A DNA stretch of 64,000 nucleotides. It comes from Pseudomonadota bacterium. Lineage in GTDB: Bacteria > Pseudomonadota > Alphaproteobacteria > Dongiales > Dongiaceae. Location: the NCBI GenBank assembly GCA_016183985.1, contig JACPDN010000006.1, positions 682,001 to 746,000 of the forward strand. Direction: 5' to 3'. Under the pieces are notes generated by a model. That model worked only from the letters and a program-made list of their open reading frames with translations, did not search any database and had not been told where the DNA came from. Position numbers and translations under genes: made by a program. Shown here piece after piece: positions 57,723 to 64,000 of this stretch. How positions within the stretch are numbered: the first letter of the stretch is position 1; every line of letters begins with the position of its first letter.

Positions 57723-57747
57723 AACCCGATGCGATCTGAGCGGTTCC
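57723..57747 (-). promoter_or_regulatory. EcfG-type promoter motif before the DUF3309 gene
   Basis: On the minus strand GGAAC (57747-57743) and GTT (57725-57723) are 17 bases apart, the spacing of promoters used by EcfG sigma factors. The motif lies about 64 bases upstream of the DUF3309 start. About two such matches per spacing are expected by chance in a window this size, so location is the main support. Confidence 0.5.
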
Positions 57748-57919
57748 GCGCCTGATCCATCCAGCGCTGGTCCGAAAGATCCATCTGTTGTCGGGGATTT
57801 TGTCGGGGCCACGGCTTGACGTCGATTCCGACACTGGCCAGGATGTGCGTCTGCGCTACCCAGCACCATCCGATAAATCTCTGCTCGCCCGCATCCGTCC
57901 CAGATCAAGGAGATCAGGT

Positions 57920-59482
57920 TTGGCCCGCCTTGCGCCATCCGGGGAAGGTCGATCACTGGAGTCACTGCGCACAGAGCTCGATTCCGTTAGCGCAGTCGAC
58001 CGCAAGCCCTTCAGCCAACTTATCATCCTGATGGGCGCAGCGGCTCTTGTCGCGATCATCGCCATCGCCTCGGTCCTGCTGACCTTTGATAACCGCGCAG
58101 CCGGCACAGGAATACTGCGCGGACAACGCGTCACTACCGATATCGCGCGTCTGCTGATCCTGGTGCACCGTGCAGAAAGCAGCCAACGTGGCTTCCTCCT
58201 CACGACCAACCGCGCCTATCTCGACCTCTATCACGACAGCATTGAAAAAGTCGGGCCGGCACTCGAAACGCTGACTGAAAGTACACGCAATGACGGTTCT
58301 CTAGCGACCGAGGCACTTAACTTGCGCACTCTAGTGAATGCCAAGATCGGCGAAATGGAGGAAGTCCTCTCGCTATTTCAGGGCGGACGTAAAAACGAGG
58401 CGCTAGGCGTCGTGAAGACGAATGCCGGCAAAAACCTGATGGACCAGATCCGCGAGAGCACTACCACCATGTGGCAAGTGTCTACAGGTCAGACGGAATT
58501 GCGGATCGACACATGGCGCCACAAGAATAACTGGCTTCTGGCGGTTCAGCTCGGTGCTGCCGTGCTTGTCCTGGTGGTCTCCGGCCTTGCTATCTGGAGT
58601 GGCATCCGCCACACCCGCGGCCTGCAACGCACCCAGGCTACATTGTTGCGAGCCAACGAGCTTCTTGAGGAGCGAGTCGTCGCCCGTACCGTCGACTTGC
58701 AGGAGGCCAATGAAGAAATCCAGAAGTTTGCTTACGTCATCAGTCATGACCTGCGCTCGCCGCTCGTAAACATCATGGGCTTTACGGCCGAACTCGGCAC
58801 CATCCGACGGGAAACAGCGCAGCTGCTGGGTCTGCGAGCAGAATCTGGTCTGGCAAGACGTCCCGCCGAAAAAGTGGATCACGAATTCGGCGAGGCACTC
58901 GACTTCATCCAGCAATCTACCAGAAAGATGGACCGCCTGATCAGTGCCGTGCTGAAACTTGCTCGGTCCGGACAACGTCGTTTCCACTATGAGCTCATCA
59001 ACATGAACGTTGTCATGGACGAAATTGCGGCGACCTTGAAGCACCGCACAGGCGAAACCGGCGCGGAAATCGCTATCGAGCCTCTTCCACCACTCGTCAG
59101 CGACCGATTGGCGGTTGAACAGATATTTGGAAACATTCTAGATAACGCTGTGAAATATCTCGACGAAGGACGCTTAGGCCGCATCCTGGTGCGTGGCCGG
59201 ACCATTGGTCGGGTCGTTATTGTCGAAGTCGAAGACAACGGCCGCGGCATCACGCACGAGGATCTGGCAAGGGTCTTCGATCTATTTCGCCGCGGCGGCA
59301 AGCGAGACAGGCCCGGTGACGGCATCGGCCTTGCTCATCTCAAAGTCCTTGTTCGCCGGCTTGGCGGCAGGATCAGTTGCCGTTCGACGCCGGGCGTCGG
59401 CAGTGTGTTTTCCGTTCTCCTGCCGCAGGCTGCTCCAAGCCCCGCTACAGATGCGCCCGACGCAGAGAGCACCAGGCGATGA
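57920..59482 (+). CDS. Membrane sensor histidine kinase with a CHASE3 domain
   Basis: A 520-residue kinase. Membrane helices lie at about 32-55 and 205-227, and the periplasmic loop between them is a CHASE3 domain (RGQRVTTDIARLLILVHRAE, then ESSQRGFLLTTNRAYL). A coiled segment leads to HisKA with the phosphoacceptor His276 in AYVISHDLRSPLVNI, and an ATPase domain (DNAVKYLDEGR, VEDNGRGI, GDGIGLAHLKVLVRRLGG). The start is a TTG at 57920 with an AAGGAG site seven bases upstream; the frame is open further back to 57788 without a site. The next gene, a response regulator, overlaps its stop by four bases. Confidence 0.88.
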   Translation: MARLAPSGEGRSLESLRTELDSVSAVDRKPFSQLIILMGAAALVAIIAIASVLLTFDNRAAGTGILRGQRVTTDIARLLILVHRAESSQRGFLLTTNRAYLDLYHDSIEKVGPALETLTESTRNDGSLATEALNLRTLVNAKIGEMEEVLSLFQGGRKNEALGVVKTNAGKNLMDQIRESTTTMWQVSTGQTELRIDTWRHKNNWLLAVQLGAAVLVLVVSGLAIWSGIRHTRGLQRTQATLLRANELLEERVVARTVDLQEANEEIQKFAYVISHDLRSPLVNIMGFTAELGTIRRETAQLLGLRAESGLARRPAEKVDHEFGEALDFIQQSTRKMDRLISAVLKLARSGQRRFHYELINMNVVMDEIAATLKHRTGETGAEIAIEPLPPLVSDRLAVEQIFGNILDNAVKYLDEGRLGRILVRGRTIGRVVIVEVEDNGRGITHEDLARVFDLFRRGGKRDRPGDGIGLAHLKVLVRRLGGRISCRSTPGVGSVFSVLLPQAAPSPATDAPDAESTRR

Positions 59483-59916
59483 TAGCCACGCCTATCAGCA
59501 TCGTGATGATCGAGGACGACGAAGGTCACGCCAGATTGATTGAGAAAAACATCCGTCGTGCCGGCGTTGCCAACGAGATCATGCCATTTGCCAACGGTGG
59601 CGACGCCTTGGATTTTATCGTCGCTCAACATCAAGACAGTCAATCCAATAATGATCGCAGGATGTTGATTCTACTCGATCTCAACCTGCCAGATGTGAGC
59701 GGCCTCGACGTTCTTGCCAAAATCAAAGCTACTGACAGCACGAGGCAGATCCCGATTATTGTGCTGACGACGACAGACGATAAGCTTGAGATACAGAGAT
59801 GCTACGAACTGGGCTGCAATGCCTATATCAAGAAGCCTCTTGAATACGAATCCTTCGCAAACTCAGTGCGTCAATTGGGTTTGTTCTTTAGTATCATCGA
59901 ATTGCCGCCGGCATAA
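59479..59916 (+). CDS. Single-domain response regulator (CheY-like)
   Basis: A 145-residue stand-alone receiver. The acidic pair lies in IVMIEDDEGHARLIEKNI, the phosphoacceptor Asp in LILLDLNLPDVSG (about Asp67), the conserved Thr in VLTTTDD and the Lys in AYIKKPLEYE. There is no output domain. It overlaps the stop of the CHASE3 kinase gene (ATGA), so it is almost certainly the phosphorylation partner; the pattern resembles Rcp1-type regulators that answer a hybrid kinase. Confidence 0.88.
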   Translation: MIATPISIVMIEDDEGHARLIEKNIRRAGVANEIMPFANGGDALDFIVAQHQDSQSNNDRRMLILLDLNLPDVSGLDVLAKIKATDSTRQIPIIVLTTTDDKLEIQRCYELGCNAYIKKPLEYESFANSVRQLGLFFSIIELPPA

Positions 59917-59930
59917 GGACGGCTAACGGC

Positions 59931-61004
59931 ATGTCGCTCCGCCCCCATATCCTTTATATCGATGACGATCATGGCATCTGTCGCCTGGTTGCCAGCGAGC
60001 TAGCCCGCCATGATATCGACACCACGGTCGCTTACAGTGGCGTCGATGGCCTTCGTCTCGCATCCGAAGGCGCTTTCGAAGTCGTCGGCCTCGACCACTT
60101 CATGCCGGGCGAGGACGGCCTCGAAATCCTCGCCGCCCTGACCTCCCTGCCGCATGCGCCTTCCGTCATTTATGTAACGGGCAGCGAAGACATCAATATT
60201 GCCGTGGCCGCACTGAAATCGGGTGCTAGCGATTTTGTCGTCAAGGACATTGAAGGATCGTTTCTTGCCTTGTTGCGCAAGGCAATCGCAACGGCCGTTG
60301 GCCAAGCCCAATTGCGCCGCGCCAAGGAGCAGGCCGAGGTGGAAATGCGTGCCGCCAATGAAAGATTGGAACGATTGACGGAAAAGCAATCCATTCTTCT
60401 GCACGAAATGAACCACCGCATCGGCAATTCACTTCAACTCATTACCTCGATGATCCGGCTGCAGGCATCTTCGACTGAGAACCCTCACGCCAAGGACGTT
60501 CTCCGTCAGGCCGCCGAACGTGTCGTCGCGGTCGCCCAGGTCCATCAGCGGCTCTATACGTCCGAAGACATTCAGCATGTCCAGATGCGGCCCTATTTGA
60601 CCAAGCTCCTGGAGGACCAGAAGCTCACTGCACGCGATCGAGGATGCACCTTGTCGATCGAGATTGACGACACAAAGCTGGCCACTGATCGCGCCGTGTC
60701 CGTAGGCATCGTTGTGACCGAACTGGTGACGAATGCGCTGAAATACGCCTACCCCAAGGAAGGAGGCCCCATTCGTGTTAGACTGGGGCATCTCGCCGAG
60801 GCAAAGCTGGTCTTGACTGTGGAGGATGAAGGAATCGGCGATTCCGGATCTGCGCAAACTGCCAAGGGAACGGGTGTCGGTTCGCGCATCGTAGATGCGA
60901 TGTCGCGGAGCCTGGGGGGAGATCTGCAGCTTAGCAGCGAAGGCGGTGGCTTTCGCTCTGCGCTGATCTTCCCACTATCGACTGAGCAATCGCCGCCTCC
61001 GTGA
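59931..61004 (+). CDS. Receiver-HisKA_2 hybrid kinase
   Basis: A 357-residue soluble protein with an N-terminal receiver (ILYIDDDHGICRLVASELAR, phospho-Asp55 in VVGLDHFMPGEDG, Lys in FVVKD) and a C-terminal kinase of the HisKA_2 type (LLHEMNHRIGNSLQLITSMI, phospho-His about 162; ATPase domain NALKYAYPKEGG, VEDEGIGD, GTGVGSRIVDAMSRSLGG). Such kinases often feed PhyR in the general stress response of alphaproteobacteria. It follows the response regulator gene after 14 bases and converges with ecfG. This may be an input to the PhyR cascade; that is inference from family and location. Confidence 0.87.
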   Translation: MSLRPHILYIDDDHGICRLVASELARHDIDTTVAYSGVDGLRLASEGAFEVVGLDHFMPGEDGLEILAALTSLPHAPSVIYVTGSEDINIAVAALKSGASDFVVKDIEGSFLALLRKAIATAVGQAQLRRAKEQAEVEMRAANERLERLTEKQSILLHEMNHRIGNSLQLITSMIRLQASSTENPHAKDVLRQAAERVVAVAQVHQRLYTSEDIQHVQMRPYLTKLLEDQKLTARDRGCTLSIEIDDTKLATDRAVSVGIVVTELVTNALKYAYPKEGGPIRVRLGHLAEAKLVLTVEDEGIGDSGSAQTAKGTGVGSRIVDAMSRSLGGDLQLSSEGGGFRSALIFPLSTEQSPPP

Positions 61005-61039: not shown

Positions 61040-61642
61040 TTATTTGGCCTTTGGCCGCATGGTTGTTGCTTCTTGCAATAAGAAGTCCTCGAGACTGCTT
61101 GGCTGCGACGGCTCGGTATCGGTACGAGGTGCCGCCAGATTGCCTTGCTCGAGAATCTGCTTCAACTCTGCGCGGGCGCGCGAGACGCGGCTCTTCACAG
61201 TTCCAACCCGGCAGTTGCAGACTGCTGCCGCCTCCTCATATGAGAACCCGCTGGCGCCCACCAGAATCAGCACTTCGCGCTGGTCCGGGTTCAACTGCCA
61301 GAAGGCACGCCGAAAATCATTGAACTCCAAATTGGCTTCCTGCGACGGACCGATCGATGGCTCGTCTCCCGCCATCTCGTCGATCGGGGTCGACTTGATC
61401 CAGCGCTTTCGGCATTCGTTGTAGTAGAGATTGCGCAGGATAGTGAACATCCAGGCCTTGAAGTTCGTGCCTGGCGTAAATTGATCGATCGCCGCCAAGG
61501 CCCGCACGACGGCGTCATGGGTCAAATCATCGGCTTGATCGCGGTTGCGCGTGAGTGACCGTGCGAATGCGCGCAGATGCGGAATCACGTCCAGCAACAT
61601 CGCTTCGACGTCCATCCGATCTTCTTTCACCTGCATGTCCAT
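61040..61642 (-). CDS. ecfG: EcfG-type extracytoplasmic sigma factor
   Basis: A 200-residue sigma factor with region 2 (FARSLTRNRDQADDLTHDAVVRALAAI, then TNFKAWMFTILRNLYYNECRKRW) and region 4 (LNPDQREVLILVGASGFSYEEAAAVCNCRVGTVKSRVSRARAELK). This is the ECF15/EcfG type that drives the general stress response of alphaproteobacteria. The chosen ATG at 61642 has an AGAGAAG site; the frame is open to 61711, but that extension lies across a promoter motif (61667-61691) and has no ribosome-binding site. It follows nepR on the same strand (175-base gap). Its C-terminal tail is longer than usual and Ser/Gln-rich. Confidence 0.9.
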   Translation of the reverse strand: MDMQVKEDRMDVEAMLLDVIPHLRAFARSLTRNRDQADDLTHDAVVRALAAIDQFTPGTNFKAWMFTILRNLYYNECRKRWIKSTPIDEMAGDEPSIGPSQEANLEFNDFRRAFWQLNPDQREVLILVGASGFSYEEAAAVCNCRVGTVKSRVSRARAELKQILEQGNLAAPRTDTEPSQPSSLEDFLLQEATTMRPKAK

Positions 61643-61666
61643 CCGCTTCTCTTTGGTTTCATGCCG

Positions 61667-61691
61667 AACGCTGCGCTGCGGTAGCAGTTCC
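61667..61691 (-). promoter_or_regulatory. EcfG-type promoter motif before ecfG
   Basis: On the minus strand GGAAC (61691-61687) and CGTT (61670-61667, counting the C) lie 17 bases apart up to GTT. The motif is about 25 bases before the ATG at 61642, so a start about 7 bases downstream would give a short leader with the AGAGAAG site. It suggests that EcfG activates its own gene. Confidence 0.6.
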
Positions 61692-61817
61692 TGAGATGCT
61701 CCTTGGTACATGGCTGATAGACCGTCGCATTTGGCAGTGGCACCAGATCATCCCGACTTCAGCGAGACTCAACTGTCAGGTTCATTTTCCATGTAGAAAT
61801 CGCCGCTGCTTTGGCCG

Positions 61818-62111
61818 TCACTTGTCGTCGGACCTATTTCCCTGCGAACGAAGCTTCCCTACCAATTTGGCAAGGTCTGGCGGCAGCGGCTCGCTGCTGA
61901 CGTCATTAAACAGCCTATTGAGCTGCTCATCAAACCAGCGATCCAGAACGTGCGGTGGGCCGCCATTAATTCCTTCGTCGATACCAGCCAGCACAGTCGG
62001 ATGTTCCGATCGAGATCGGTAGATACCGCTCGGCATCTCCGGCGCGACAGCCACTGATCCTGGCGACTTGCCCGAACTCTTATCCCGAGCACCTTTGTCA
62101 GCGGCATTCAT
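61818..62111 (-). CDS. nepR: NepR-type anti-sigma factor
   Basis: A 97-residue protein. The N-terminal half is polar and likely unfolded; the C-terminal part (about 57-88, LDRWFDEQLNRLFNDVSSEP, then LPPDLAKLVGKL) is the two-helix core of NepR, which binds EcfG and, after stress, PhyR-P. A longer frame reaches 62174, but the ATG at 62111 is preceded by AGAAG. It lies upstream of ecfG on the same strand, as in most alphaproteobacteria. A palindromic EcfG-type promoter lies about 190 bases upstream and is shared with phyR. Confidence 0.85.
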   Translation of the reverse strand: MNAADKGARDKSSGKSPGSVAVAPEMPSGIYRSRSEHPTVLAGIDEGINGGPPHVLDRWFDEQLNRLFNDVSSEPLPPDLAKLVGKLRSQGNRSDDK

Positions 62112-62296
62112 ATCTTCTGCTTCGATTTTGCGTGAGGTCACGATCGACAACTGCCTTGTTTCACTCCGATCCATAGGGCGCGTACGCCCCCATCCCCGAT
62201 ACCGCTGCCTGACCTCTTGACGCTCGCTGGCGAACCAAAAGGTATTTTAGGATTAATGGCATGGCCCGAGCACAGCGGATTTTTCTCTCTGTGACG

Positions 62297-62323
62297 GGAA
62301 CCCAAATCGGGTGAATCGGTTCC
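62297..62323. promoter_or_regulatory. Palindromic, possibly bidirectional EcfG-type promoter
   Basis: The motif reads GGAAC-N17-GTTCC. On the plus strand GGAAC (62297-62301) and GTT (62319-62321) are 17 apart; on the minus strand GGAAC (62323-62319) and GTT (62301-62299) are 17 apart. It therefore fits an EcfG promoter in both directions, one for phyR (start about 65 bases on) and one for nepR (about 190 bases on). Confidence 0.65.
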
Positions 62324-62387
62324 TTAATTATCCAAAAAATGCCGGTGGCTGCGTCGGCGCTTAAACAAGAGCAAAAGGGTGGCATCT

Positions 62388-63185
62388 GTGCGCGCGAATT
62401 CAGAAGAAATTGTACATAATCTCAAATACTTGCGGCGCTACGCGCGTGCATTGATGGGGTCACAGGAATCCGGCGATCTTTACGTCCGCGTTTGCCTGGA
62501 GGCGCTCTTGGCCGAGCCCGACCTGCTTTCAGCTGGTACAAATGTGAAGCGGGATCTTTTTCGTCTTTTCCACGCAGTCTCCAACCGGAATGTCGAAGGC
62601 GGCAATGGTAGCGATCTTGTTGACCTATCCGTTGAGGCGCGGCTACGCGCCCTTCCCGCGTCGGAGCGCCAGATTCTCCTGCTCACATCTCTTGAAGGCT
62701 TTTCTACCGCTGACGCGGCGGCAATCCTCGATATTCCGCTTGCCGAAGCCGAGGCCCTGCTGGTCGACGCTTGGTCGACGGTCAACCAGCAGATTGCAAC
62801 CTCGATCTTGGTGATTGAGGATGAACCTGTCATTGCCTTGGATATCGCCAGCCTCGTCACCGAACTCGGCCACCAGGTCGTCGGCGTGGCGGCGAGCCAG
62901 ACTGAGGCGGTTGCGATCTTTAAGAAGATGCTGCCCGGCCTGATCCTTGCAGATATCGACTTGGGTGCCGGTGGCTCGGGCATCACGGCGGTGAGAGACA
63001 TTCTGCGAATGTCGTCGGTCCCGGTGATCTTCGTGACCGCTTATCCTGAACGCCTGCTGACCGGCGAGCGGCCAGAGCCCACCTATCTCGTTACCAAGCC
63101 GTTCGAGCCGGATACGCTCAAGGTCACCATTTCGCAGGCACTGTCATTTACAAGTGCCGGCCACGCCAAACGACTTGCAGTCTAG
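62388..63185 (+). CDS. phyR: PhyR-type response regulator with a sigma-like N-terminus
   Basis: A 265-residue anti-anti-sigma factor. The first about 130 residues mimic an ECF sigma (LKYLRRYARALMGSQESGD as region 2, ERQILLLTSLEGFSTADAAA as region 4), and the last 120 are a receiver (ILVIEDEPVIALDIASLV, phospho-Asp about 189 in LILADIDLG, Lys in YLVTKPFEP). When phosphorylated it takes NepR away from EcfG. The chosen start is the GTG at 62388, eight bases after an AAGGG site; an in-frame GTG at 62379 overlaps the site. It is divergent from nepR across the palindromic promoter, and a Cache sensor gene follows. Confidence 0.93.
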   Translation: MRANSEEIVHNLKYLRRYARALMGSQESGDLYVRVCLEALLAEPDLLSAGTNVKRDLFRLFHAVSNRNVEGGNGSDLVDLSVEARLRALPASERQILLLTSLEGFSTADAAAILDIPLAEAEALLVDAWSTVNQQIATSILVIEDEPVIALDIASLVTELGHQVVGVAASQTEAVAIFKKMLPGLILADIDLGAGGSGITAVRDILRMSSVPVIFVTAYPERLLTGERPEPTYLVTKPFEPDTLKVTISQALSFTSAGHAKRLAV

Positions 63186-63318: not shown

Positions 63319-64000
63319 ATGAGCGGGTCATTTTTGCAACCGCTGCGGCATCGCCTCATCCTCCTCTTTGCCATTGTCCTTGTCGTGCCCAGCGCCTTTG
63401 GCATCTGGGCGGCGATTAACAATTTCAATGCGCAGGTAGCGACCGCCCGTGACGCCGCCTTGCGCTTTGCTGAACTTGCCTCGAATTATGAAAGCAATCT
63501 CTTGTGGCAATCTCGGCAAATCGTCCAGAATCTCTCGCGTGACGAGAATGTGTTGGCCGTTCTCCGCGGCGTCGATGAGCCTCGGATACGCGATGCCTGC
63601 GACCGAGCATTTGCCAGCGCTGTCCAGCCCTATCCGTCCTATGGCACCGCCGTCCTGTTTGATCCCAAAGGCGATGCGCGATGTCAATGGGATCAAACCA
63701 AGCGATTGATCAATGTCTCGGATCGACTCTGGTTTCAGAATGTAATCGCCAATAAATCCGACACGATCAGCGGCTATCTGCTTTCACCGGCACTCAAGGA
63801 ACCGATCGTTTCTTACGGGGCGCCGATCTTTGATGTCGACGGCGTCTTCAAAGGCGTTGTCTCTCTTGCCATTCGCCTCAACTGGCTCTCTGCGATCGGC
63901 CAGGAACCCGGCCTGCCCAGCATCGCCGAAGTGACGCTGCTGGACCATGATGGCAGAGTGCTGGTGAGTTCCACCGGCACAGAGAAGGAAACAACGCGCC
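63319..64000 (+). CDS. Cache-domain membrane sensor, probable histidine kinase (partial)
   Basis: An open frame that runs off the right end (227 residues visible). A membrane helix (about 10-35, RLILLFAIVLVVPSAFGIW) is followed by a periplasmic dCache-type sensor: VQNLSRDENVLAVLRGV, then FQNVIANKSDTISGYLLSPA, and APIFDVDGVFKGVVSLAIRL. Such modules bind small ligands and precede a kinase or cyclase. Its place next to phyR suggests an HWE/HisKA_2 kinase that feeds PhyR, but the output domain lies outside the window. A GGAAG site is ten bases before the ATG; the frame is also open further upstream without a start codon of merit. Confidence 0.75.
   Translation, partial: MSGSFLQPLRHRLILLFAIVLVVPSAFGIWAAINNFNAQVATARDAALRFAELASNYESNLLWQSRQIVQNLSRDENVLAVLRGVDEPRIRDACDRAFASAVQPYPSYGTAVLFDPKGDARCQWDQTKRLINVSDRLWFQNVIANKSDTISGYLLSPALKEPIVSYGAPIFDVDGVFKGVVSLAIRLNWLSAIGQEPGLPSIAEVTLLDHDGRVLVSSTGTEKETTR

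Follow-up and report, generated by a model that had tools for sequence, protein, structure and literature searches.

In Alphaproteobacteria, the general stress response hinges on how PhyR, NepR and EcfG are balanced, and released EcfG transcribes both arms of the cassette that encodes these proteins. The locus described here raises the question of whether the two arms may share a single promoter. In the 64,000-nucleotide stretch of Dongiaceae DNA that we analysed (the window), a palindrome lies at 62297-62323, between phyR on the plus strand and nepR-ecfG on the minus strand; named relatives put the organism close to Dongia (Rhodospirillales). Read directly, its sequence is GGAAC CCAAATCGGGTGAATCG GTTCC, with a 17-base spacer (N17). 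The exact pattern GGAAC-N17-GTTCC occurs once in the window, where matches with one mismatch or fewer numbered six against 2.0 expected, and only five exact sites with a spacer of 17 or 18 were present in the whole 4.65-Mb genome.

The genes on both sides form a PhyR-NepR-EcfG cassette. The plus-strand gene phyR (62388..63185) encodes an anti-anti-sigma response regulator that matched NF006623 at 317 bits (cut-off 240), carries PhyR sigma2, PhyR sigma-like and receiver domains (PF22029, PF22233 and PF00072) and had PDB 3n0r as its best solved match (E = 5e-72). Its start is probably the GTG at 62388, and the mechanical ORF start, GTG 62379, is probably wrong, because relatives among nine aligned Dongiaceae loci have ATG or GTG at 62388, most of them without an upstream in-frame start. 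The anti-sigma factor gene nepR (61818..62174, minus strand) was assigned with PF18557 and a profile match to NepR structures in the PDB. The window's NepR alone scored 19 bits with PF18557, under the cut-off of 25.7. The same model matched all nine aligned Dongiaceae NepR sequences from this position (best 5e-9), and a profile of these aligned sequences matched solved NepR chains, such as 3t0y_B (E = 3e-4). The third gene, ecfG (61040..61711, minus strand), encodes an ECF15-type sigma factor with PF04542 and PF08281; its best match was 5uxx_A (E = 2.5e-44), and NepR is chain 5uxx_B of the same entry. The layout is that of the known cassette, in which nepR lies upstream of and co-directional with ecfG and divergent from phyR.

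The cassette is flanked at 57788-61004 by genes for a CHASE3 histidine kinase, a single-domain response regulator and a receiver-HisKA_2 kinase, and at 63319-64000, after phyR, by a gene for a dCache-domain protein that is cut by the window end. These kinases, the response regulator and the dCache protein are likely inputs to PhyR. An EcfG-like site, GGAACCGCTCAGATCGCATCGGGTT, was also seen on the minus strand at 57723-57747, about 40 bp before the CHASE3 histidine kinase gene and directed away from it.

The sequence-only reading had proposed that the palindrome fits the -35/-10 pattern of EcfG promoters on both strands with equal spacing, and that nepR and phyR are often transcribed from such promoters. 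The sequence at 62297-62323 confirms the former, and the latter is borne out by the literature: the available text of PMC4814048 gives the EcfG consensus as GAAC-N16,17-C/GGTT and both cassette units as usually EcfG-controlled, and that of PMC8103513 likewise speaks, in general terms, for both arms being under EcfG control. By pattern matching, GGAAC-N17-GTT was found at 62297-62321 on the plus strand and at 62323-62299 on the minus strand. From sequence and the EcfG consensus, the -35 element of the phyR-directed promoter is GGAAC at 62297..62301 (plus strand), of which bases 62299-62301 double as the nepR-directed -10 GTT. Conversely, the -35 GGAAC of the nepR-directed promoter occupies 62319..62323 (minus strand), and bases 62319-62321 double as the phyR-directed -10 GTT. 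Together these elements make up the 27-bp core of the proposed bidirectional EcfG promoter (62297..62323). Both strands carry a GGAAC -35 and a C/GGTT -10, and GAAC is separated from C/GGTT by the published 16 or 17 bases. Both -10 boxes are GGTT, an accepted variant; CGTT is commoner, which counts against reading the palindrome as a bidirectional EcfG promoter.

Beyond the left arm, at a distance of 13-17 bp, lies a T-tract (62280..62284) that may resemble an UP element for the phyR-directed promoter, and 11-16 bp beyond the right arm an A-tract (62334..62339) may do the same for the nepR-directed promoter. At positions 13-17 beyond the arms in ten Dongiaceae loci, 46 of 50 cells on the left and 50 of 50 on the right were A or T. 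We infer that these tracts, which flank both arms symmetrically, are UP elements.

Whether such sites are EcfG promoters at all was addressed with a survey of about 100 phyR loci across the class, in which GGAAC...GTT pairs were tallied for each spacer length at the 61 divergently arranged loci. The relevant spacers to GTT, 17 and 18, follow from the consensus in the literature and from the histogram of spacers. In the phyR direction there were 26 pairs at spacer 17 and 6 at spacer 18 (32 in total), and in the nepR direction 28 and 11 (39 in total). No pair was found at spacer 16 or 19 in either direction in these 61 loci. The sites can therefore be recognised as EcfG sites by spacer alone. 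Minor peaks appeared at spacers 22 and 23 and are due at least partly to the interleaved register (see below). On both strands, the window's site shows the most frequent spacing, 17.

Of the 12 phyR upstream regions from Dongiaceae, 10 contained the palindrome, with a 17-base spacer in seven and an 18-base spacer in three, the same two values as for EcfG sites in the class-wide survey; it was absent from the other two loci (L233 and L239). Dinucleotide-shuffled upstream regions yielded 0.0013 palindromes per locus, and the palindrome at Dongiaceae phyR loci is not due to chance. Among the seven N17 loci, GGAACCC and GTTCC were invariant, and the base before GTT was G in six. Spacer identity fell as low as 0 of 14 bases, between the window and L202. 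CC follows GTT in all 10 palindromic Dongiaceae loci compared with only 4 of 76 EcfG sites outside the family; symmetry is therefore not inherent to EcfG promoters. As Dongiaceae loci have a common ancestry, the ten palindromic loci are not independent.

We consider it very probable that the palindrome constitutes a single bidirectional EcfG promoter, to which EcfG polymerase binds in either orientation. The proposal that this single site would drive both phyR and nepR-ecfG, already made in the sequence-only reading, is well supported by comparison, namely by the 10 of 12 Dongiaceae loci, the spacing and the symmetry. An improbable alternative is that a single EcfG orientation works here, with the other half matching through constraint or coincidence and an unrecognised promoter serving the second gene. 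The GGTT form of both -10 boxes would fit this account, as would two loci of another family (L200 and L227) that have the palindrome plus a separate nepR-directed promoter, so that the reverse half may be idle there. It is opposed by the symmetric conservation of both halves, including bases that matter to the reverse reading only, such as the CC that follows GTT. Furthermore, the nepR-phyR gap of the window contained neither a sigma-70-like promoter nor a further EcfG-like site with the right spacing.

A second alternative, which we regard as very unlikely, is that a dimeric transcription factor uses the palindrome as its operator, the likeness to the EcfG -35 being secondary. The symmetric arms, GGAACCC...GGGTTCC, do extend to as much as 8 bp each, and similar elements are found at a second divergent Dongia locus. 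However, the spacing shifts by one base (17 or 18) as that of EcfG sites does, which a dimer operator would not predict, and in other families the same half-sites recur, at the corresponding position, within asymmetric EcfG promoters. The operator reading is also disfavoured by the lack of a genome-wide excess of palindromes. The last alternative is negligible: CC after an EcfG promoter, expected about once in 16, is enough to make it palindromic, and the motif is half-symmetric by nature (hence the CC at 4 of 76 sites elsewhere), but a coincidental palindrome was already disfavoured by its retention in 10 of 12 Dongiaceae loci despite spacer turnover.

The second Dongia locus, whose palindromes also speak for the bidirectional-promoter reading, lies upstream of a creA-like gene. 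N17 palindromes face a divergent neighbour there in two genomes (L245/L291 and L250/L290; those of L250 and L245 near 1501-1527), an N18 palindrome occurs in a third (L293), and the host genome has an N18 version with one mismatch (L292; contig C10, about 175362-175389). The neighbour is DUF2177-like in two genomes and a different gene in two others; both names, creA-like and DUF2177-like, come from reading the sequences alone, without a profile search. Genus-wide, 48 palindromic sites were counted at spacers 17 and 18 and 51 at the control spacers 14 and 15, and the symmetric element was rejected as a general Dongia regulon motif. A reversed-pattern control (52 vs 4) was disregarded, as base context differs in the reversed motif. 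In the host genome, three further palindromes (L001, L003 and L004) were set aside because they overlap long open frames. Given that there is no genus-wide excess, the case for the phyR palindrome rests on position and conservation, and the lack of a genome-wide excess indicates an arrangement of particular divergent pairs, without a regulon-wide motif.

With the palindrome taken as a bidirectional EcfG promoter, the polymerase would read phyR in the plus orientation, with a predicted start near 62329-62332, and nepR-ecfG in the minus orientation, with a predicted start near 62288-62291. Firing would thus occur in both directions from one site. When phosphorylated PhyR frees EcfG, the palindrome would boost the activator arm (phyR) as well as the brake-plus-sigma arm (nepR-ecfG). 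By its size, probably only one polymerase at a time could occupy the palindrome, so that the orientations would be mutually exclusive, and the ratio of PhyR to NepR-EcfG may be set by their relative strength. Each -10 is embedded in the opposite -35, and two initiation complexes would therefore be unable to form together. That the two directions would compete follows from this geometry, together with the E. coli precedent; at E. coli bidirectional promoters, competition appears only once one direction is strongly active (PMC12825309). Under stress, the palindromic promoter could reach this strong-transcription regime.

To compare arrangements across the class, we defined d as the number of bases from the phyR-directed GGAAC to the nepR-directed GTTCC; negative values denote the reversed order, so that d = -18 is GTTCC-N8-GGAAC. 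Loci with two perfect promoters fell into three main registers: exact overlap, interleaved and back-to-back. Exact overlap (d = 17 or 18) comprised the ten Dongiaceae loci and two from a different family in which a back-to-back promoter is present as well. The interleaved register (d = 22 or 23) comprised four loci, plus three Zavarzinia-family loci with one mismatch in a -10. Back-to-back promoters (d = -16 to -19), with -35 boxes 6-9 bp apart, were found at ten divergent loci and were the commonest non-overlapping arrangement; a few loci had two perfect promoters at d = -38 to -57. The interleaved GGAAC-N22/23-GTTCC sites (L048, L050, L173, L179, L183, L222 and L225) come from Zavarzinia, Albidovulum, Albibacillus and another family. 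The back-to-back pairs (L203, L208, L214, L223, L224, L226-L229 and L232), from several families, have a strikingly constant gap, mostly d = -18.

Overlap of this exact kind had been called unusual. This stands for the exact register, which is nearly confined to Dongiaceae, but not for overlap in the wider sense, as the d = 22/23 form recurs in other families. Judged from these sequence comparisons, exact overlap is how Dongiaceae show a broader tendency to keep the two promoters near each other in a small number of fixed arrangements. An ECF holoenzyme is described as covering DNA up to -60 (PMC5263251), and back-to-back pairs are therefore also likely to exclude each other; at the palindrome, exclusion would be difficult to escape. 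It is possible, though doubtful, that selection holds the phyR and nepR-ecfG promoters in few registers so that their polymerases exclude each other, coupling activator and brake at the DNA level, with the Dongiaceae palindrome as the extreme.

Several known systems resemble this arrangement in part. In the available text on the EcfG (ECF15) promoters of the nepR-ecfG and phyR units of Alphaproteobacteria (PMC4814048, PMC8103513, PMC3616915), the genes, divergent layout, motif and spacing are the same and both units are EcfG-controlled. That text describes one promoter per unit and does not mention a shared palindromic site, whereas in the window one 27-bp site would serve both units, each -10 lying inside the opposite -35. 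The prokaryotic bidirectional promoters of Warman, Grainger and colleagues (PMC12825309) likewise consist of pseudo-symmetric DNA with two exclusive polymerase orientations that yield divergent mRNAs, and the window shares with them a symmetric sequence and overlapping promoter elements on both strands. Their symmetry, however, is that of the sigma-70 -10 element, whereas in the window the -35 of one direction is coupled to the opposite -10 and the sigma factor is an ECF one. Start sites would be about 40 bp apart in the window, compared with the common distances of 10, 18 or 23 in those promoters. The window does not have a shared -10 of their kind: two distinct -10 boxes lie at opposite ends of the palindrome, and a -10/-35 pair is shared at each end. 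The palindrome would thus work like a bidirectional promoter, but not one of the shared -10 kind. In the hrpL-hrpJ intergenic region of Pseudomonas syringae (PMC5263251), an ECF holoenzyme at one divergent promoter similarly impairs transcription of the regulator next to it; there, the promoter facing it depends on sigma-54, and the two sites lie side by side rather than forming one palindrome.

The literature searched, mostly without subscription journals, yielded no account of an EcfG promoter that is palindromic or shared, which is weak evidence that none has been published. The cassette, the control of both its arms by EcfG, and bidirectional promoters were known before; what is new is the exact palindromic register. 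This register would carry the bidirectional-promoter concept from the sigma-70 -10 element over to ECF sigma factors, with a symmetry of another type. If the activator and the brake of the general stress response share one exclusive promoter, the ratio of PhyR to NepR-EcfG would be set in cis.
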